DNA from: Thermovibrio guaymasensis
GTDB taxonomy: Bacteria; Aquificota; Aquificia; Desulfurobacteriales; Desulfurobacteriaceae
DNA: 64,000 bases
Direction of reading: 5' to 3'
Assembly (NCBI RefSeq): GCF_003633715.1
Contig: NZ_RBIE01000001.1
Coordinates: 372,001 to 436,000 of the forward strand
Shown here: positions 18,889-28,705 of the stretch, piece by piece
Layout of the letters: every line of letters starts with the position of its first letter
Numbering within the stretch: position 1 is the stretch's first letter
Notes under the pieces: model-generated
Database searches by the model: none
Seen by the model: the letters and a program-made list of their open reading frames with translations, nothing else
Told to the model about the DNA's origin: nothing
Position numbers and translations under genes: made by a program

Positions 18889-19956
18889 TTGGAATTCCAC
18901 ATAGATAGGGCAAAGGTCCTTCCTAAGGCTAATGTTTGGGAGTTCCTTGAGGGGTTAAAGAGGCGCTTTAAGCTGATAGCCCCTGTAAAAGAGGGGGAAA
19001 AGTGCTCATATAAAGAGATCTCCGATGTAACTACCGTTGAGTTAAGCTATACGAGAACGGTTCTACCTCCGAAAAAGTACCTCCTTCCCTACAGAAGGGA
19101 GAGGTTCTCTTATAACCCTGAAACTATGGAGTTTAAAACTTTTAACTCTATCCAGGAGCAAGTAATCTTTGGAGTTCACTCCTGTGACCTTCATGGAATT
19201 TCAATACTTGATTCAGTCTACCTAAAGGAAAACCCCGACCCCCGCTATTTAGAGGTCAGGAAGAAAACGATCCTCATCGGACTTTCCTGCTATCCAGATG
19301 AGTACTGTTTTTGCCTTTCAACTGGAACGGCCTTTCCGGACGGGGCAAACTGGGATCTTTTCCTAACTGATATAGGGGCTGATTACTTCGTTTCAATTGG
19401 GAGCCCTAAGGGGGACGAGATAGTTCTTACCTTAAAGAACCTATTTAGAGAAATTGAAAAGGAGGACTTGGAGCTCTACAAAAGGAGTACCCGTAAGAAG
19501 AAAGAAGCTTTTAATAGAAAGGAGCTTCCCGACCTTGAAAGGATTTCCCAGTTAATTGAGCTTGAGTACGACTCTCCGGTTTGGGAAGAGGAAGCTAAGA
19601 AGTGTTTAGGTTGCGGAACGTGTACTAACGTATGCCCTACCTGCTTCTGCTATACCAGCGTTGATATTCCCGACTTAGAAGGGAAAGAGGTTAAGAGGGT
19701 AGAGTTTGTTACTTCCTGTCAGTATCCTTACTACTCCTTGGTTGCAGGTGGACACTACTTTAAGCCGACAAGGACTTCCCGCTTTAGGCACCGTTATTAC
19801 CACAAGTTTGTTGGCTTCCCTTACCAGGTTGAGAAGTTAGGCTGTGTCGGCTGTGGAAGGTGCAGTTCAGAGTGTCCAGCCGAAATAAGCATAGTGAGGA
19901 CTATTAAGAAGTTGAGAGGAACGGATGAAAAAGAGCTTAGAGAAGCTGTTAAATAA
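18889..19956 (+). CDS. hydB: soluble hydrogenase beta subunit (Fe-S, sulfhydrogenase type)
   Basis: 355 residues from TTG behind GGGAGGAG. The C-terminal third has two four-cysteine Fe-S motifs: CLGCGTCTNVCPTCFC (about residues 238-253) and CVGCGRCSSECP (about 323-334). The N-terminal part contains FGVHSCDLHGI, as in the beta subunits of archaeal sulfhydrogenase and anaerobic sulfite reductase A. It passes electrons between the small subunit and the flavin subunit. Gene order beta-gamma-delta-alpha is that of the Pyrococcus-type group 3b enzyme. The 3' end overlaps hydG by 32 bp. Confidence 0.9.
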   Translation: MEFHIDRAKVLPKANVWEFLEGLKRRFKLIAPVKEGEKCSYKEISDVTTVELSYTRTVLPPKKYLLPYRRERFSYNPETMEFKTFNSIQEQVIFGVHSCDLHGISILDSVYLKENPDPRYLEVRKKTILIGLSCYPDEYCFCLSTGTAFPDGANWDLFLTDIGADYFVSIGSPKGDEIVLTLKNLFREIEKEDLELYKRSTRKKKEAFNRKELPDLERISQLIELEYDSPVWEEEAKKCLGCGTCTNVCPTCFCYTSVDIPDLEGKEVKRVEFVTSCQYPYYSLVAGGHYFKPTRTSRFRHRYYHKFVGFPYQVEKLGCVGCGRCSSECPAEISIVRTIKKLRGTDEKELREAVK

Positions 19957-20806
19957 GCCCCTTCCTGCTGATCCGTTTTTACCCCAGAAGGTAGTTATAA
20001 CCGATGTGGAGGAGCTAGCTCCTGAACATAAGAAGTTCACCTTCTCATTCCTTGAACCTAGCTCCTGCGAGAGGTGGAACCACATTCCCGGCCAGTTTGT
20101 AATGCTTACTGTACCTAAGGCCGGAGAGATACCGATTTCTATCTGTTCGTCCCCAACGAGGAAAGGTGTTATAGAGCTTACAGTTAGAAAAGTTGGTAGG
20201 AAGACGGAGGTTCTCCACTCCTTAGGCCCTGGAAGCGTAGTTGCACTGAGAGGACCTTACGGTAACGGTTTTCCGATTGGAATTATGGAAAACCACAACG
20301 TTTTGATAATAGCCGGAGGTTTAGGTATAGCTCCACTTCGCTCTTTAATCTGGTACATCCTTGATAGACGCCATCTCTTTAAGGAAGTTTACCTCCTCTA
20401 CGGAACGAGGAACTACTCCTCTGTTCTCTATAAAGATGAGCTCTCCAGGCTTAAGGAGAGGAAGGATATAAAGTGCCTTTACATCCTTGATAGGTTGGAG
20501 ACTCCCGAGGATGAGGAGTGGAGCCAGGGAAGGGAAGGACTCATTACGGATCTTATCCCTGAAGTTTCCCTTGAGCCGAAAGAGACTTACGTTGCCGTGT
20601 GCGGTCCGCCCATTGCTTATAAGTTCATAGGGAAAGAGCTCTTGAAAAATGGTTATCCTGAAAGCCAAATTTTCGTTTCTCTAGAGAGGAAAATGGAGTG
20701 TGGCATCGGTAAGTGTGGCCACTGTCAAATTGGATACAAGTTTGCCTGCGTTGATGGTCCAATTTTCCCTCTGTGGGATACAAAAAACCTTCCGGAGATG
20801 ATTTAG
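19925..20806 (+). CDS. hydG: soluble hydrogenase gamma subunit (FAD/NAD(P)-binding)
   Basis: 293 residues of the ferredoxin-NADP reductase superfamily. An FAD-binding beta barrel (QFVMLTVPKAGEIPISIC) is followed by an NAD(P) domain with IIAGGLGIAPLRSL and VAVCGPP. The C-terminal CGIGKCGHCQIG ... C motif binds a [2Fe-2S] cluster as in dihydroorotate dehydrogenase electron-transfer subunits. It is the site where NAD(P)+ is reduced with electrons from hydrogen, or the reverse. It ends exactly where hydD begins. Confidence 0.92.
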   Translation: MKKSLEKLLNKPLPADPFLPQKVVITDVEELAPEHKKFTFSFLEPSSCERWNHIPGQFVMLTVPKAGEIPISICSSPTRKGVIELTVRKVGRKTEVLHSLGPGSVVALRGPYGNGFPIGIMENHNVLIIAGGLGIAPLRSLIWYILDRRHLFKEVYLLYGTRNYSSVLYKDELSRLKERKDIKCLYILDRLETPEDEEWSQGREGLITDLIPEVSLEPKETYVAVCGPPIAYKFIGKELLKNGYPESQIFVSLERKMECGIGKCGHCQIGYKFACVDGPIFPLWDTKNLPEMI

Positions 20807-21568
20807 ATGGTGAAAATAGGAGTTATTGGTCTAACGGGATGTTCAGGTTGTCAGTGCGAAATACTTAATTGTCAAGATGCCCTTTTGAAGTTGCTTTCAA
20901 AGGTTGAGATTTCCCTCTTTCCCCTTGCAAAGGATGACAACTTAGAGGATGAGCTTGACCTCTTATTCGTTGAGGGGTCAGTTTCAACGTCCCTTGACAG
21001 GGATTGGCTTTTGAGACTTAGGGAGAGGACAAAGGTCCTCGTTGCTGTTGGTTCCTGTGCCTGCTACGGGGGAGTCCAAGCCCAGAGGAACGATGAAGTT
21101 CAGATTGAGGAGATGGTAAAAGAGGTTTACGGTAGTTGGAAACTTCCTTTTGAGGTCTTTAAGCCCTCTCCCGTTTCTGAGTTTGTAAAAGTTGATTACT
21201 TCCTACCTGGGTGTCCTTTAGATAAAAAGCAGTTTGTCTATACTGTTTCATTTCTTCTTAACGGGGTCAAGCCTTTCTTTCCAAAGATTCCCGTCTGTCA
21301 TGAGTGTAAACTTTCGGAGAACGAGTGTCTCCTTTTAAAGGGAATTCCTTGTCAAGGGCCCGTTACTTATGCTGGGTGTGGAGCTCCCTGCACTTCAAAG
21401 GGAGTAGGATGCCAGGGCTGTAGGGGGGACTGTGACTTTCCAAACCACGAGGAGATTATCTCCATACTTACAAAGAAAGGACTTTCCTACGAAGATGCCC
21501 TTAAGTTCTTGAAGGTCTTTAGAGGGAATACCTTCAGAGTGAGGAGAGTAGATGAAAAAGGAGCTTAA
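20807..21568 (+). CDS. hydD: soluble hydrogenase delta (small) subunit
   Basis: 253 residues. The proximal cluster motif is TGCSGCQCE (C12, C15), followed by VAVGSCACYGG and a FLPGCPLDK cysteine. The C-terminal region has further cysteines (VCHECKLSENEC, CQGPVTYAGCG, GCQGCRGDC) expected for medial and distal [4Fe-4S] clusters. It channels electrons from the Ni-Fe site of the alpha subunit to HydB/HydG. It overlaps the alpha gene by 17 bp. No signal peptide, so the enzyme is cytoplasmic. Confidence 0.95.
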   Translation: MVKIGVIGLTGCSGCQCEILNCQDALLKLLSKVEISLFPLAKDDNLEDELDLLFVEGSVSTSLDRDWLLRLRERTKVLVAVGSCACYGGVQAQRNDEVQIEEMVKEVYGSWKLPFEVFKPSPVSEFVKVDYFLPGCPLDKKQFVYTVSFLLNGVKPFFPKIPVCHECKLSENECLLLKGIPCQGPVTYAGCGAPCTSKGVGCQGCRGDCDFPNHEEIISILTKKGLSYEDALKFLKVFRGNTFRVRRVDEKGA

Positions 21569-22850
21569 CGTTAATCACTTAACTAGGGTTGAGGGACACG
21601 GAGCGGTAGATATAGTTATTGAGAATTCAAGGCTTTCTGAAATCAGGTTAAGGTTTGCTGAAGGTCCTAGGTTCTTTGAAGTTATAACCAAAGATAGGCT
21701 CTATACTGAGATACCAAAAATAGTTTCTAGGATCTGCGGAATCTGTTACGTTTCCCACAGGCTGGCCGCTGTTTTTGCCATTGAAGATGCCTTTAGGGTT
21801 AAGGTAAACAGAGGGATTGAACTTTTAAGGAGTTTGTTAACCGTTGGGGAATTCTTGGAGAGCCACTCCCTTCACATTTACTTCCTTGCCCTTCCTGACT
21901 ACATGGGGTACCCGTCAACTTTGGCTATGGTTAAAGATTACCCGAACGTGGTAAAGAGGGGTTTTAAGCTGAAGGAAGTTGGAAACAGGATAATGAAGTT
22001 AATCGGCGGTAAAACTGTTCACGGTGAGAATATACTAGTTGGCGGTTTTGCCTCTATTCCTTCTCGGGAGGAGTTAGAGGAGGTAGGAAGGAGCCTTTTA
22101 AAGTTAATACCTGAGATTGAATCTACCTTATTCTTTCTTGACGGCCTTGAGTATCCGGAGTTTGAGTCTTCCCACGAGATGGAAATGTGCCTTAATTCGC
22201 CATCTCCTTCACTCTTTTCTTCAGAGGTTTCCCTTTCCGATGGAACAAATTTCACAAAGAGGGAGTATGAACTCTTTGTAAGAGAGGAGGTATCCCCTTA
22301 CAGTACCGCAAAAGTTTCAAAGGTAAAAGGAAAGCCTTTCTTAATAGGCCCTCTTGCAAGGGTTAACAGGCTTGAACTTCACCCGAAGGTTCTGGAATTA
22401 ACAAAGAGGTTGAAACACTCTTTCCCTTCTAAAAACAGCCACTTGGCAAACCTTGCAAGGGCAGTTGAGCTCCTTGATGTTGCTTACAGGGGAGTTGAGT
22501 TTGTTGAAGAGCTCCTTTCTCTCTATCCTTTTGAGCCTACGGTTGAGGTTAATCCGAGGGAAGGAACAGGTTTTGGAGTTAAAGAAGCTCCAAGGGGAAC
22601 TCTCTACCACAAGTACACCTTTGATTCAAAGGGAAGGTGTATCGGAGCAAACATAATAACTCCGACTGCTCAGCTTCAGTCTGTAATTGAGGATGATTTA
22701 AGGGCTCTTGTTGAAACGAGTCTTGATAGTGAAGATTCAGAGATTAAGAAGAGAGCTGAGGTCCTTATAAGGGCTTACGATCCGTGAATTGCCTGTGCAG
22801 TCCACCAGTTTGGTGGAGAGTTTGAGACTGTAAGGGTTATAAGGAGATAG
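21552..22850 (+). CDS. hydA: soluble hydrogenase alpha (large) subunit with selenocysteine at UGA ([NiFeSe])
   Basis: The frame from ATG 21552 has the L1 motif RICGIC (C62, C65) and runs to ...RAYDP followed by TGA at 22785-22787. The TGA stands exactly where the first cysteine of the family's C-terminal motif DPCxxCxxH belongs. The same frame continues IACAVH, completing the motif, then 14 more residues to TAG at 22848. Read with selenocysteine 412 the protein has 432 residues, with ligands U412 and C415 and the expected maturation-protease cut after H418. A 7 bp hairpin begins 13 bases after TGA. A chance nonsense mutation would be unlikely to leave the rest of the motif and the tail intact. 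The next gene's ribosome site overlaps the TAG, so the true end is 22850. Confidence 0.9.
22801..22817 (+). promoter_or_regulatory. bacterial-type SECIS hairpin of hydA
   Basis: TCCACCA-GTT-TGGTGGA, a perfect 7 bp stem with a small loop. Opening the closing A-U pair gives a 6 bp stem and the loop AGUUU. It begins 13 bases after the UGA and its loop G is 21 bases past it. Bacterial SECIS elements need a short stem-loop inside the coding region just after UGA, with a G in the first two loop positions; both conditions are met. SelB would bind it to deliver Sec-tRNA. Confidence 0.75.
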
Positions 22851-22852
22851 AC

Positions 22853-23323
22853 GTGGTAGAAAGGTGTAGGCTCTTTAGTGACTTTTCTCCCATTGAGAAG
22901 GGAACGCTGTCTGGAGTTTTAATCCCGGTCTCTTTTAGTAAAGGTGAAATACTCTTTGATGAATTTCAGGAGGCCGATTCAGTTTACTTCATTATGGAGG
23001 GAAGTGTTGGCCTTTACAGGAGCGATAACTTCGGAAGGTGGACTAAAGTTGCCCTTATTTATAAGGGAACTCCTTTAGGGGAGTGTGCCTTCTTTTTAAA
23101 CGCTCCTCACTCATTAAGGGCTGTTGCTGAAAGCCCCGTTAAGGCTTTGAAAATCACTAAAGAGGGAGCTGAAAGCTTAAAGAGAGAAGCTCCGAAAGTT
23201 TATGCAAAGTTGGTTGAAAAGCTCGTTTCTGTTATGGCGGAGAGGTTGAAATCTTCAGACTTTAAGTTCTCACAAATCTGCGGATTTTTCTCCGTTCCAG
23301 GAGGAGGTAGATGGAAAAGGTAG
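22853..23323 (+). CDS. stand-alone cyclic-nucleotide-binding-type domain protein
   Basis: 156 residues from GTG with AAGGAG six bases upstream. The sequence follows the Crp-type effector domain: F-S-D-F-S-P-I-E-K, FSKGEILFDEFQEADSVYFI, a phosphate-binding-cassette-like GECAFFLNAPHSLRAVAE with one arginine, then a long helix (about residues 110-135). There is no C-terminal helix-turn-helix; the protein ends SVPGGGRWKR, overlapping echA by 13 bp. It lies between the two hydrogenases, so it is probably a regulatory or structural partner of one of them and not a DNA-binding regulator. Confidence 0.8.
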   Translation: MVERCRLFSDFSPIEKGTLSGVLIPVSFSKGEILFDEFQEADSVYFIMEGSVGLYRSDNFGRWTKVALIYKGTPLGECAFFLNAPHSLRAVAESPVKALKITKEGAESLKREAPKVYAKLVEKLVSVMAERLKSSDFKFSQICGFFSVPGGGRWKR

Positions 23324-25170
23324 TGGGAGCTCTAGTTCTAGTTCCTTGGCTGCTGGCCCTTTTAGTCTTCATTTCACCCTGGCATAGGGTTAGGCAGTTC
23401 TTTACTTTCCTTTCACTTCCTATACTGACTTTTCTTACCTATAGAGTTTCAGCTGGGAACTTACCTCTTTTGGTTGAAACTCCAAACTGGTTAAACGGTT
23501 TTGTTACCCTTTACGACTTTCTCCTCCTTTTCTACTTCCTTTATCAAGGTTTAAAGTTTAGGAACTTTTTAGTTTCAGTTCTCTCTCTCTTCCAGCTCTT
23601 TCTACTTGTATGGGTTTTAAAAGTCCTTCCCCACAAGGAGGGGGCGGAGCTCTTAGTTGATAGGCTGACCGTCTTTATGTACTGGATTGTTGCAACCGTT
23701 GGAACTTTAATTGCCTTTTACGCTACCAAGTACATGGAGCAGGAGGACTTAAGTAGGGAGAACAGGTTCGTTTCAGTTCTCCTTTGGTTCTTGGGAGTTA
23801 TGAACTTTGCAGTTTCCGTTAATAACCTGGAGTGGTTCTTTGCACTCTTTGAGACCACGACCCTTGCCTCTTACGTCCTGATCAGGTTCAGGTGGGATGA
23901 GATTTCAATTAAAAATGCCCTAAGGGCTCTCTGGATGAACCAGATCGGTGGAGTTGCTATCCTCCTGGCAATCCTGTTTGCAGTTAAGTACTACGGAGTT
24001 TACAGGTTTACAGAGATTCTCTCAATGAAGGGACATTTAGTTTCTATGGTTCCCTTGAGCTTCCTGGCAATTTCAGCTTTAGTTAAAGGGGCTCAGCTTC
24101 CCTTCCACAGGTGGCTTTTAGGGGCAATGGTTGCTCCTACTCCCGTTAGTGCAATTCTCCACTCTGCAACTATGGTAAAGATTGCTCCTTACTTAATTTT
24201 GAGGCTCTCTCCCGTAATTAAGGGGACCCTTCTGGCTAAACTTTTGATTATCACAACAGGTTTCGTTTTCGTTTCTGCGGGCCTTTTGGCCCTTACCCAG
24301 AGTAACTTTAAGAAGATACTTGCCTATTCGACAATTTCCCTCCTTGGCCTTATGATGTTAACCGGTTCAATGGGAAGTCCTACCGCCGTTTTGGCCTCTC
24401 TCCTTCTAATTCTCTTCCACGCCGTTGTAAAGGCCCTCCTCTTTATGGAAGCCGGAGTTATGGAGAAGTTGTTTAAGGCTAAATATATAGAGGATATAAA
24501 GAGGCTTGTGGAGAGAGCTCCAGTAACGGTTCTCTTTATCTCCATAGGCTTTATGAGTATGACCATAGTCCCTTACGGTATTTTTGTTGCAAAGTGGTTA
24601 ACTATTGAGGAAGCATCAAACTTCCTCTCCCACGGGGCTTACATCAGTTCAATAATCTTCGTTGCAATCGGCGGAGTAATCCTTTCACTCCTTTACTTTA
24701 AGGTAATAGGGGTTATGACCAGAAAGAGGGAGGAGTTCGTTAGGTTTAGACTGGAGAGGCTTCCATTTGTTTACCTGTTTTCAACCGTTCCTTTAGTCCT
24801 GTTTACAGTTTTTGGTTCGCTTTTCATAGCCAGACTCTCAGCAGAGCTGATTAATCCGGTTGTAGCTCAGGTTGTAGGCTCTCCTGCACCTGTAAAAGCC
24901 GCTGGTCTAACCTTAATAACTGGAGTTTCAGCCCTCTACGGCTGGCAGATAATAGGTGCCTTCCTCCTTCTCCTCATTGTTCCTATTCTTGCCTACTTTG
25001 TTCACTTTTCAGGTACCGATAGGGTGTTCCCCTATACCTGTGGGGAGAGGGTAGATTTAACCCTTGGAACTTACAACTTCTTCTGCGTTTCATCCATTGA
25101 ACCCTTTGTTGAAACGGCATCAGTAGCTCTCTTCATTCTGACCCTCGTTCTTGGAGGAGGTCTAGTATGA
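23311..25170 (+). CDS. echA: Ech-like membrane hydrogenase, antiporter-type subunit A (NuoL/CooM family)
   Basis: 619 residues, about 15 hydrophobic spans. Central proton-conducting antiporter motifs are visible: YATKYMEQED near residue 135, ALVKGAQLPFHRWLLGAMVAPTPVSAILHSATMVK (lysine and histidines of the channel), and LLILFHAVVKALLFMEAG. It would couple hydrogenase turnover to ion translocation. It is the first gene of an echABCDE(cyt)F series in the same order as the Ech hydrogenase cluster and the related carbon monoxide-linked Coo enzyme. It overlaps both neighbours. Confidence 0.9.
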   Translation: MEKVVGALVLVPWLLALLVFISPWHRVRQFFTFLSLPILTFLTYRVSAGNLPLLVETPNWLNGFVTLYDFLLLFYFLYQGLKFRNFLVSVLSLFQLFLLVWVLKVLPHKEGAELLVDRLTVFMYWIVATVGTLIAFYATKYMEQEDLSRENRFVSVLLWFLGVMNFAVSVNNLEWFFALFETTTLASYVLIRFRWDEISIKNALRALWMNQIGGVAILLAILFAVKYYGVYRFTEILSMKGHLVSMVPLSFLAISALVKGAQLPFHRWLLGAMVAPTPVSAILHSATMVKIAPYLILRLSPVIKGTLLAKLLIITTGFVFVSAGLLALTQSNFKKILAYSTISLLGLMMLTGSMGSPTAVLASLLLILFHAVVKALLFMEAGVMEKLFKAKYIEDIKRLVERAPVTVLFISIGFMSMTIVPYGIFVAKWLTIEEASNFLSHGAYISSIIFVAIGGVILSLLYFKVIGVMTRKREEFVRFRLERLPFVYLFSTVPLVLFTVFGSLFIARLSAELINPVVAQVVGSPAPVKAAGLTLITGVSALYGWQIIGAFLLLLIVPILAYFVHFSGTDRVFPYTCGERVDLTLGTYNFFCVSSIEPFVETASVALFILTLVLGGGLV

Positions 25171-26003
25171 CTCTTGCTTTAGTCCTCACTCTCCTTTCTC
25201 CCATTATAGGCGGTTTCGTTTACGGTTTTGAGAGGATTTTAAGGGCAAGGATGCAGGGAAGGGTCGGTCCTCCACTCCTACAGCCCTTTTATGACTTCTT
25301 TAAGCTCTTAGAGAAGAGGAGTTTAATAGTTCACTCTTTCCACGCCTTTATGGGAATTATGTATCTACTTGGAACCTGGTTTTCCCTCTACGTTCTCCTT
25401 TCAGGCGGTGACATTCTGGTTGCTATATTCTTCCACCTATTGTCCCTTGCCTTCTTGGTTGTCGGAGGTTTCAGCGTTCGTTCTCCCTACTCCATCATCG
25501 GTTCAATGAGGGAGCTCCTCCATATGGTGGCCTACGAGCCGGTTTTCGTCCTTGCTGCTGCGGGGCTTTACCTTGTAACCGGTACCTTTCAGGTTTCTGA
25601 GATCCTTCACTCTGACCAACTTCCCATCCTTTATGTTCCGCTTGTCTTCCTGTCTCTCCTCTTGGCACTTCCATCTGTCTTGAAGAAATCTCCCTTTGAC
25701 CTTTCGGAAGCTCACCAGGAGATAATAGGCGGACCTGAGATTGAGTACTCGGGTAAGTACTACGAGGCGGTTTATACTGCAAAGTGGATTGAGTACGTCT
25801 ATGCTTTCTTCTTCGTCTTCCTATTTGCAGGTGGTAAGTGGTGGTTGGGAGCTCTCTTAGTTTTATTTTCCTTCTTTCTAGTTAACCTTATAGATAACGT
25901 TACTGCAAGGTTTAACTTCAGACAGATGGTTGCCTTTCACTGGTACATCCTAATTCCCCTTACAGTTATTAACCTTATGCTACTTGCCCTCTGGAGGAAC
26001 TGA
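25167..26003 (+). CDS. echB: Ech-like membrane hydrogenase subunit B (NuoH/CooK family)
   Basis: 278 residues, about eight membrane spans. Homologous in pattern to complex I subunit 1: GFVYGFERILRARMQGRVGPPLLQPFYDFFKL at the N-terminus and KKSPFDLSEAHQEIIGGPEIEYSGKYYE in the loop facing the Fe-S subunit. It links the hydrophilic arm to the antiporter-like subunit. ATGA overlap with echA. Confidence 0.93.
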   Translation: MTLALVLTLLSPIIGGFVYGFERILRARMQGRVGPPLLQPFYDFFKLLEKRSLIVHSFHAFMGIMYLLGTWFSLYVLLSGGDILVAIFFHLLSLAFLVVGGFSVRSPYSIIGSMRELLHMVAYEPVFVLAAAGLYLVTGTFQVSEILHSDQLPILYVPLVFLSLLLALPSVLKKSPFDLSEAHQEIIGGPEIEYSGKYYEAVYTAKWIEYVYAFFFVFLFAGGKWWLGALLVLFSFFLVNLIDNVTARFNFRQMVAFHWYILIPLTVINLMLLALWRN

Positions 26004-26005
26004 GT

Positions 26006-26530
26006 ATGGATCTAAAGAAGTTTAGGAGTAAGTCTCCCTGGCTCCTTCACTACAACACAGGAAGCTGTAACGGGTGTGACATTGAGATCCTTGCCTGTCT
26101 TGCTCCAAAGTATGACCTTGAGAGGTTCGGGATACTCAACAGGGGGAACCCGAAGCAGTCTGATGTCCTCATCGTTACCGGCCCTGTAACTAAGAGGGCG
26201 AGAGAAAGGTTGATTCGCCTCTACCTGGAGATGCCTGAACCGAAAGTGGTTGTTGCAGTTGGGGCCTGTGCCTGTACCGGCGGCGTCTTTAGGCACATGT
26301 ATAACGTTTTAAACGGTGTTGATAAGGTGATTCCCGTTGACGTCTACGTTCCCGGCTGTGCTGCAAGGCCTGAGGCGATAATAGATGGAGTTGTTAAAGC
26401 CCTTGAAATCCTTGAGAGGAAGAGAAAAGATTTTGTTCCCCCGAAAGTCTGTAAGAACCTTGAAGTTAAGGAGCCGGTCAACAGGAAGTTCTTTTTGGAA
26501 AAATGTCTGGGGGTAAAGAATGGAAGTTGA
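26006..26530 (+). CDS. echC: Ech-like membrane hydrogenase small subunit C (NuoB/CooL family)
   Basis: 174 residues. The [4Fe-4S] ligands are in NTGSCNGCDIEILAC, VAVGACACTGG and VYVPGCAARPE, matching the N2-type proximal cluster of group 4 hydrogenases and complex I. It is a cytoplasmic peripheral subunit taking electrons to or from the Ni-Fe site. Starts 2 bp after echB; overlaps echD by 11 bp. Confidence 0.95.
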   Translation: MDLKKFRSKSPWLLHYNTGSCNGCDIEILACLAPKYDLERFGILNRGNPKQSDVLIVTGPVTKRARERLIRLYLEMPEPKVVVAVGACACTGGVFRHMYNVLNGVDKVIPVDVYVPGCAARPEAIIDGVVKALEILERKRKDFVPPKVCKNLEVKEPVNRKFFLEKCLGVKNGS

Positions 26531-26864
26531 GGAGATTAAAGTTCCTCTAAGGGACGTTAGGAAAACTATTAAGGAGTTTTACGAAGAGGATAAGTGGCAC
26601 TTTATAACTGTTAACGCCGTTGACTTGGGCGGAAAGGTTGAACTAAAGTGGTTTTTCTCCCCTTACGGTGAAAAGGAACGCTTTAAGGTTGTTGTATCTG
26701 AGGTAAGCTACGACGAGGAGATTCCAACAATTACCTACCTAATTCCTTCAGCCTGGATTTCAGAGTGGGAGCTTGCAGACCTGTTTGGGCTTAACGTTGA
26801 AGGGGCGAAGACTGGTTTGTTCCTTGAGCCTGATAGTCCTAAGGCACCTTTAAGGAGAGGTTAG
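26520..26864 (+). CDS. echD: Ech-like membrane hydrogenase subunit D (NuoC/CooU family)
   Basis: 114 residues, similar to the NuoC fold: DKWHFITVNAVDLGGKVELKWFF, then TYLIPSAWISEWELADLFGLNVEGAK, the segment corresponding to the W-x-E-R-E-v-x-D-m-f-G signature of 30 kDa complex I subunits. It is a structural partner of EchE. Position inside the ech series supports the call. Confidence 0.88.
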   Translation: MEVEEIKVPLRDVRKTIKEFYEEDKWHFITVNAVDLGGKVELKWFFSPYGEKERFKVVVSEVSYDEEIPTITYLIPSAWISEWELADLFGLNVEGAKTGLFLEPDSPKAPLRRG

Positions 26865-26866
26865 AG

Positions 26867-27952
26867 ATGGGAAATAGGATAACAATTCCCTTTGGTAGTC
26901 AACACGTTGCTCTTCCAGAGCCTATAAAGTTCGTCTTTCAGACTGAGAACGAGAGGATTACTTCAGTTGAGGTTGACGTCGGTTATGTTCACAGGGGAAT
27001 AGAGAAGGCCTGTCAGACCAAGTTTAAGTACACTCAGGTTGGATACGTTGTGGCGAGGGTTTGTGGACTGTGTTCTATTTCCCACACCCTTGCTTACGTT
27101 ACGGCGGTTGAGAGGTTAATGGAAGTAGAGGTTCCAAAGAGGGCCCTTTACCTGAGGTTGATAGTTAGTGAGCTTGATAGGGTTCACTCTCACCTCCTTG
27201 CCATGGGGCACACGGCCGAGGTTGCAGGTTATGAAAACCTCTTTATGCAGACCTTCAGGTATAGAGAAACGGTTATGGAGCTCCTTGAACTTTTAACGGG
27301 AAACAGGGTTCAGTATGACTATGCCTGTATCGGTGGAGTGAACAGGGACGTAACCCCTGAGGTGGCCAAGACCCTTAAGGAGAGGTTGAAGGAGCTTAAG
27401 GAGAAGTGTCTGTGGATTAAAGATGTCTTTGAAAACGACCTTACCCTGAAGTACAGGTGGAAAGGTGTGGGGGTTGTTACAAAAGAAATGGCAAAGGAGT
27501 TTAACGTTGTCGGCCCTCCTGCAAGGGCTGCAGGCCTTGAAACCGACTGTAGGGCTGAGTTTAACTACCTACCTTTTGATGAGGTTGGCTACAAAATGGT
27601 AGTTCGGAAGGGGGGCGATATTTACGATAGGAACCTTGTCAGGGCATATGAGGTTCTAAACTCAATAGAGATGGTTGAAAACGCCCTTGACTCCCTCCCT
27701 CAGGGAGAGATAAAGGTTCCAGTTAAAGGCCTTCCCGATGGAGAGAGCTTTGTAAGGGTTGAGGCTCCAAGGGGGGAGCTCTTTTACTACGTAAAGGGTT
27801 CAAAGAAGTTGGTCCTAGATAGGGTGAGAATCAGAGTTCCCACCTTTGCAAATATCCCTGTTATGAAGGAGCTCTTTATCGGAATGGATTATTCAGACGT
27901 TCCGGCAACAGTTATCAGCTTTGACCCGTGTCTATCATGTACCGCAAGGTAG
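26867..27952 (+). CDS. echE: Ech-like membrane hydrogenase large subunit E (NuoD/CooH family)
   Basis: 361 residues. Both Ni-binding motifs are present with ordinary cysteines: RVCGLCSISHT (C66, C69) and DPCLSCTAR at the extreme C-terminus (C355, C358). The protein ends right after the arginine, so no maturation peptide needs to be removed, as in several group 4 enzymes. VGYVHRGIEKACQ matches the group 4/complex I pattern. This contrasts with the UGA-containing large subunit of the first hydrogenase in the same operon. Confidence 0.95.
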   Translation: MGNRITIPFGSQHVALPEPIKFVFQTENERITSVEVDVGYVHRGIEKACQTKFKYTQVGYVVARVCGLCSISHTLAYVTAVERLMEVEVPKRALYLRLIVSELDRVHSHLLAMGHTAEVAGYENLFMQTFRYRETVMELLELLTGNRVQYDYACIGGVNRDVTPEVAKTLKERLKELKEKCLWIKDVFENDLTLKYRWKGVGVVTKEMAKEFNVVGPPARAAGLETDCRAEFNYLPFDEVGYKMVVRKGGDIYDRNLVRAYEVLNSIEMVENALDSLPQGEIKVPVKGLPDGESFVRVEAPRGELFYYVKGSKKLVLDRVRIRVPTFANIPVMKELFIGMDYSDVPATVISFDPCLSCTAR

Positions 27953-27960
27953 GAGGAAGT

Positions 27961-28311
27961 GTGAGGTTTTTCCTTCTCCTCTTATTAGTTACTCAGGCAT
28001 TTGGTTATTCCTTTGCCTGCAGTAGTGACTGTTACCAGTGCCACACCATTCCAAAGGATAGAGACCATGAACCTATTAAGACGTGTACCAAGTGTCATGG
28101 GGAACACTCAGAAGGAGCCTTGGGGGGAAAGTGCGGGGCAGACTGTTTTGACTGTCATGATTACAGGAAAGTTTCCCGTTCTTCAAAGGCCCACAGAGTT
28201 TTAAGTAGGTGTATTGAATGCCATAAATCCTTAAAGTTGAAGAGCCTTCCTGAACCTTTAAAGGCTCTTTTAGGAGGAAGTAATGAAGGAGATGTTAATC
28301 CAGACTATTAA
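27961..28311 (+). CDS. tetraheme c-type cytochrome in the hydrogenase operon
   Basis: 116 residues from GTG 27961, which follows an AGGAGG site and gives a clean signal peptide (MRFFLLLLLVTQAFG, then YSFA). A longer frame from 27928 overlaps echE and spoils the signal. Four CxxCH sites: CYQCH (24-28), CTKCH (42-46), CFDCH (62-66) and CIECH (84-88), so four hemes c are expected outside the cytoplasmic membrane. No membrane anchor beyond the signal. It overlaps echF by 29 bp and separates echE from echF. It may carry electrons between the membrane complex and periplasmic or quinone partners. Confidence 0.85.
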   Translation: MRFFLLLLLVTQAFGYSFACSSDCYQCHTIPKDRDHEPIKTCTKCHGEHSEGALGGKCGADCFDCHDYRKVSRSSKAHRVLSRCIECHKSLKLKSLPEPLKALLGGSNEGDVNPDY

Positions 28312-28705
28312 AAACCTATTTAGCAAACCAGAAACTGTTAACTACCCTGCAGAGCCCTCCCCTACTCCTCCCGGTTATAGGGGGCTAATAGTTTACGATG
28401 AGAGCCTCTGTATCTTCTGCACTAAGTGTGAGATTGTTTGCCCTCCGGGGGCTATAAGGTTCGTTTATACTGATGAAGGGGAGAAGAAGTATAACTACAA
28501 TCCATACCTGTGTATTTACTGTGGTGAGTGTGTAAGGGCCTGTCCAAAGGCGGGAGTTCTGGTTCAGGTTGAGGAGACTGCACCTCCTGAGGTTTCCCTT
28601 CCAGACTGGGACTCTATTGAAAGGGAGGCCGATGAGAGTAAGAAGCGCTTCCTTTCACGTAAGAAAAAGAGCTTAAACCCCTCTAAGAAGAGAACTTCTC
28701 AATGA
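28283..28705 (+). CDS. echF: Ech-like membrane hydrogenase polyferredoxin subunit F (NuoI/CooX family)
   Basis: 140 residues with two [4Fe-4S] motifs, CIFCTKCEIVCPPG (about 47-60) and CIYCGECVRACPK (about 77-89), in a NuoI-like context, followed by a long lysine-rich tail. It connects the hydrogenase to soluble ferredoxin. Last gene of the operon starting at 18889. Its ATG has AGGAGGAAGTA upstream. Its 3' end overlaps the convergent small gene by 23 bp. Confidence 0.9.
   Translation: MKEMLIQTIKNLFSKPETVNYPAEPSPTPPGYRGLIVYDESLCIFCTKCEIVCPPGAIRFVYTDEGEKKYNYNPYLCIYCGECVRACPKAGVLVQVEETAPPEVSLPDWDSIEREADESKKRFLSRKKKSLNPSKKRTSQ

Follow-up and report, generated by a model that had tools for sequence, protein, structure and literature searches.

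A probable selenocysteine-containing group 3b hydrogenase in Thermovibrio guaymasensis and other Desulfurobacteriaceae

A hydrogenase operon in the window studied here, a 64,000-nucleotide stretch of Thermovibrio guaymasensis DNA, points to selenocysteine (Sec) in a class of soluble, NAD(P)-coupled enzymes. We propose that the product of its last gene, hydA, is a large subunit with Sec, belonging to a soluble group 3b [NiFe(Se)] hydrogenase of four subunits, in which an in-frame UGA would be read by means of SelB and a hairpin, and we put the probability of this reading at roughly 0.94. An initial annotation of the same DNA had suggested a UGA-decoded hydrogenase; that suggestion is supported by the presence of selA, selB, selC and selD in the genome, by alternation of Sec and Cys at the site among relatives, and by the retention of IACAVH in homologues. 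The operon and the features of hydA are as follows.

18889-19956, + strand: hydB/shyB-like beta subunit (4Fe-4S ferredoxin-type, AsrA-like; NF040833 1.6e-93, NF040829 8.5e-92, Fer4_22)
19925-20806, + strand: hydG/shyC-like gamma subunit (FAD / NAD(P)-binding, DHODB-type Fe-S; NF040830 3.7e-77, NF040835 2.3e-74; PDB 9nez_C, sulfhydrogenase 1 gamma, 7e-73)
20807-21568, + strand: hydD/shyD-like delta (small, Fe-S) subunit (NF040836 2.3e-59, NF040831 1.1e-56)
21552-22850, + strand: hydA, large (alpha) catalytic subunit, 432 aa with the predicted Sec412, TAG stop at 22848-22850 (NF040828 1.1e-99, NF040832 4.7e-91; PDB 9nez_D, sulfhydrogenase 1 alpha, 3.9e-82)
21735-21746, + strand: N-terminal Ni-site CxxC (C62 and C65 of RICGIC), read from the sequence and aligned with RICSFC of P. 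furiosus
22785-22787, + strand: in-frame UGA, predicted to encode selenocysteine 412, the putative first ligand of DPUxxCxxH; in the alignment with sulfhydrogenase I it falls on DPC
22794-22805, + strand: C415 and H418 of the C-terminal ligand motif, read from the sequence; both are lost if the UGA is a stop
22801-22817, + strand: putative bacterial SECIS hairpin UCCACCA-GUU-UGGUGGA, 7 bp with a loop G, 13 nt 3' of the UGA, from folding and frozen synonymous sites
22806-22847, + strand: 14-residue C-terminal tail past His418, read from the sequence

Frame inspection places the hydA start at the ATG at 21552 and finds a lone in-frame TGA, right behind RAYDP, past which the frame continues through IACAVH and the 14 residues QFGGEFETVRVIRR to the TAG; the positions first given proved correct on re-inspection. 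Under the standard code, hydA would be an open reading frame of 411 amino acids. Why read on past a stop codon? In a phmmer search against the PDB, residue 412 aligned with the first Cys of DPCISCSVH in the sulfhydrogenase I of Pyrococcus and Thermococcus, which fixes it as the Ni-ligand position. The downstream gene starts at a GTG at 22853, 2 nt past the hydA TAG, with a Shine-Dalgarno-like AAGGAGA ahead of it, and because this start is placed behind the TAG and not behind the TGA, the operon is spaced for read-through. Nor is the TGA a product of chance, since the same codon and frame recur in 14 Desulfurobacteriaceae genomes. By analogy with [NiFe] hydrogenase maturation, the 14-residue tail would presumably be cleaved as the Ni site matures.

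The beta-gamma-delta-alpha operon (18889-22850, hydA last) matches NCBIfam sulfhydrogenase models in all four of its subunits. It combines beta, gamma (FAD/NAD), delta and alpha genes, the arrangement of group 3b, and its alpha subunit is nearest to ShyA/HydA by profile, by PDB sequence search and in the tree; the four-subunit, NAD(P)-flavin setting assigned at the outset was right, to judge by the subunit profiles and the match of gamma to sulfhydrogenase I. The alpha subunit scored 1e-99 and 5e-91 with the ShyA/HydA profiles, compared with 1e-44 for VhuA and 6e-40 for HysA, and since its best models are ShyA/HydA yet its bit scores fall below the NCBIfam equivalog cut-offs (334 vs 700 and 306 vs 880), we regard it as a divergent member of group 3b. 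The operon has neither the best profile nor the matching partners of a HysA-type or Vhu-type Sec hydrogenase. Among solved structures, alpha and gamma are closest to the group 3b sulfhydrogenase I of P. furiosus (HydBGDA) and the cytosolic [NiFe] hydrogenase of Thermococcus (PDB 9nez, 9e15, 5yxy), which share the beta-gamma-delta-alpha architecture but carry DPC where Thermovibrio has DPU. By contrast, the [NiFeSe] enzyme HysAB of Desulfovibrio and Desulfomicrobium (group 1) uses Sec for the same ligand in DPUxxCxxH, but it is a periplasmic two-subunit respiratory enzyme that lies far off in the tree, and HysA chains match the Thermovibrio alpha subunit at about 1e-33 in the PDB search, against 4e-82 for sulfhydrogenase I. 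The Sec-containing Vhu/Mvh (group 3c) and F420-reducing (group 3a) enzymes of methanogens and Desulfobacterota also belong to group 3 and use the same Sec site, but their partners are Hdr/Vhu or F420 subunits rather than an FAD-NAD(P) gamma subunit, and they occupy another clade.

The neighborhood of the operon has features of its own. Directly 3' is an operon (23311-28705) for a membrane-bound hydrogenase of group 4 (Ech/complex I-like), with proton-antiporter, NuoH-, NuoB-, NuoC-, NuoD- and ferredoxin-like genes, and between it and hydA a 156-aa protein with a cNMP-binding domain (22853-23323), in which no DNA-binding domain was detected and which is possibly a redox or gas sensor. Inside the Ech-type operon, an unusual setting for a multihaem cytochrome, 27928-28311 encodes a small protein that bears four CxxCH haem motifs, a weak cytochrome c3 match and what looks like a signal peptide.

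Across Desulfurobacteriaceae, a family search found TGA at the residue-412 codon of a full hydA in 14 genomes from several genera, both isolates and metagenome assemblies, including T. ammonificans, a congener of T. guaymasensis in which the Sec form sits on a finished chromosome. All 14 keep the TGA and IACAVHQFGG, and 20-27 codons 3' of the TGA are conserved in frame. Four genomes of one sister genus have TGT or TGC at the same codon, one further genome contains only a 5' hydA fragment, and three gave no strong hydA match (two of these are less than 90% complete). The U/C alternation that the initial annotation had proposed to look for among relatives is thus seen, with 14 Sec and 4 Cys genomes in the family, and close homologues keep the IACAVH whose absence after the stop it had named as evidence against recoding.

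The hydA hairpin resembles a bacterial SECIS element (described in general terms in PMC1088965), being a stem-loop just 3' of the UGA with a G in its small apical loop. In each of the 14 Sec genes the folding energy of its core is about -9 to -11 kcal/mol, whereas the four Cys genes of the family lack it (0 to -2.0 kcal/mol); weak folds, down to -6.8, occur in some remoter Cys genes of the same phylum. The hairpin codons, which are V, H, Q and both G, are synonymously frozen, unlike the rest of hydA: in the 14 Sec genes, none of the 44 invariant degenerate amino-acid columns in the last 140 codons 5' of the UGA uses a single codon, whereas 3' of it C, V, H, Q and G do so in 14 of 14 and the second G in 13 of 14. 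Were single-codon columns distributed at random, all five would fall in the last 10 of 54 with a chance of about 8e-5, a figure that serves as a guide only since the sequences are related. Because the stem is nearly invariant across the Sec genes of the family, there is no compensatory covariation to support the pairing, and an Rfam search at the hairpin returned no match.

Is the genome equipped to decode such a codon? The selA, selB, selC and selD genes that the initial annotation had asked for elsewhere in the genome are all present over cut-off: selA at 2e-183, selB at 1.4e-129, selD at 9e-112, and a tRNA-Sec of 80.8 bits with anticodon UCA. The tRNA-Sec of T. ammonificans and D. thermolithotrophum had already been published (PMC4227106). 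In T. guaymasensis, selD (positions 38087-39013 of contig C1) has its own in-frame UGA (SGUGAK), common to all four genomes of the genus, with a hairpin AGCCC-GGUC-GGGCU about 12 nt on; as UGA and hairpin stand at nearly the spacing seen in hydA, UGA recoding is very probably used in selD too, which makes selD a positive control for the predicted reading of hydA. One Sec-form genome, in 30 contigs, yielded no tRNA-Sec over cut-off, probably an assembly gap. The four Cys-form genomes keep selB, so the Cys of that sister genus does not stem from a loss of decoding.

Taking the UGA as a true stop, with a subunit that ends at P411 and is either a pseudogene product or truncated and non-catalytic, accords with the 411-aa frame of the standard code, but this is very improbable given that the 20-27 codons beyond it, C415 and H418 included, are conserved in frame in 14 genomes, that the next gene starts behind the TAG, that Cys relatives in the family encode the full motif and that the hairpin is frozen at synonymous sites. 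A TGA produced by faulty sequencing, or by misreading of a normal Cys codon, would take one base, the distance from TGT or TGC; the recurrence of the TGA in 14 independent genomes (isolates, metagenome assemblies and the finished T. ammonificans chromosome) already refutes it, leaving it a negligible probability. For decoding as some other residue (a suppressor or altered code giving Cys or Trp), or for plain read-through without SelB, there is nothing specific, the position needing a thiol or selenol ligand. Such decoding is hard to credit in view of the UGA that serves as the ordinary hydA stop in three relatives, the complete Sec system with its own UGA in selD, and a hairpin at the expected position.

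A further alternative leaves the Sec residue in place and reassigns the enzyme, to one of the known Sec types in group 3c (Vhu/Mvh) or group 1 (HysA). These share a near-identical DPUxxCxxH motif and account for most of the DPU matches listed, yet the ShyA/HydA models score far better than VhuA and HysA, the best solved structures are those of sulfhydrogenase I, beta and gamma partners adjoin hydA, and the tree places the subunit inside group 3b and apart from both known Sec groups, so we consider this assignment most unlikely. We therefore retain the reading of hydA as a Sec-containing group 3b subunit.

Searches beyond the family suggest that this form is confined to it. A scan for the DPU motif, with one genome per species and a pattern that left out AGY serine at one position, gave at least 119 loci, and among those listed, gamma and beta genes of this type lie nearby only in the Desulfurobacteriaceae loci; group 3b enzymes among the other listed matches were accordingly rejected, there being no such neighbors. 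Among the remaining loci, three representatives were classified: Vhu (group 3c) for two of them, HysA (group 1) for the third. The rest were assigned from motif and length only. A survey of the phylum found strong matches in 48 of 136 genomes, with TGA at the site only in Desulfurobacteriaceae, and neither the matches in Thermodesulfobacteriota (75 of 395 genomes) nor those in Actinomycetota (86 of 397) had UGA at the Ni-ligand site; one match ends before that site. Internal TGA codons in group 3b matches from seven Thermodesulfobacteriota and two Actinomycetota were dismissed, as all nine have TGT or TGC at the ligand and the TGA is a normal stop. Separately, Actinomycetota, Bacillota and Dehalococcoidia also carry DPU hydrogenases that look like group 1 by their motif, length or position in the tree (L107, L133, L159 and many Actinomycetota loci), a range broader than "sulfate reducers and methanogens".

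Maximum-likelihood analysis gathers the family's Sec forms in a single clade (98/97) nested among Cys group 3b enzymes. Its neighbors are the Cys genus and a Cys family from the same class, whose grouping with each other has weak support (83/64), and it stands well apart from both Sec group 3c and Sec group 1. Because the Sec forms are a single clade within Cys group 3b, a local Cys-to-Sec change within Desulfurobacteriaceae is the shortest account of these sequences and appears the likeliest, an older Sec state with later losses being possible.

Sec insertion by SelB at the hydA UGA appears very well supported by comparison among genomes. In the mechanism we propose, SelB with Sec-tRNA(UCA) would decode the UGA under the direction of the hairpin, and Sec412, derived from Cys within the family, would replace the first C-terminal Cys and, by its aligned position, join C62, C65 and C415 as a terminal ligand of the Ni. 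Electrons would pass from the Ni-Fe site through the Fe-S clusters of delta and beta to the FAD-containing gamma subunit and on to NAD(P)+, or the opposite way, a path between H2 and NAD(P) drawn from the group 3b family; the Thermovibrio enzyme may possibly reduce sulfur as well. Known [NiFeSe] enzymes suggest that the benefit of Sec likely lies in faster reactivation and resistance of the Ni site to oxidative damage, and the effects of Sec/Cys exchange on O2 tolerance and reactivation in other hydrogenases are summarized in PMC9961374. We think it probable that a [NiFeSe] enzyme arose here separately and independently, by Cys-to-Sec change in the NAD(P)-linked group 3b hydrogenase of Desulfurobacteriaceae from vents, beyond the sulfate reducers and methanogens, and that it was selected for sustaining H2-NAD(P) exchange under oxidant or sulfide stress.

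The same gene and operon were described from the same family, in T. ammonificans and D. thermolithotrophum, in 2017 (PMC5441870). That study placed the T. ammonificans operon in group 3b, reported for HydA no other significant homologue outside the family, and found group 3 hydrogenases other than Frh in the T. ammonificans proteome; it does not mention selenocysteine in HydA, using the word for the tRNA only. Surveys from 2006 and 2016 list FrhA, and a 2026 review describes [NiFeSe] enzymes as restricted to sulfate reducers and methanogens (PMC13188914). Searches of the open-access literature, which covered sulfhydrogenase, Thermovibrio and Desulfurobacterium, gave no report of Sec in group 3b, though mention elsewhere is possible; within their limits, the literature and genome searches agree with the initial remark that this is an unfamiliar setting for selenocysteine.

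Automatic gene calls would stop HydA at P411 and lose two ligands, and hydA is likely mis-annotated in public records, because NCBIfam has dedicated models for HysA and VhuU, whereas hydA scores far under the cut-offs of the group 3b models. In conclusion, the Thermovibrio hydA would contradict the restriction of [NiFeSe] enzymes to sulfate reducers and methanogens stated in PMC13188914. It would add a soluble, NAD(P)-coupled class to the hydrogenases that use selenocysteine, one whose members include well-studied thermostable enzymes relevant to hydrogen biotechnology. Moreover, the family would offer natural Sec/Cys pairs (14 Sec genomes, and 4 Cys genomes with selB) for probing the role of selenium at the Ni-Fe site.
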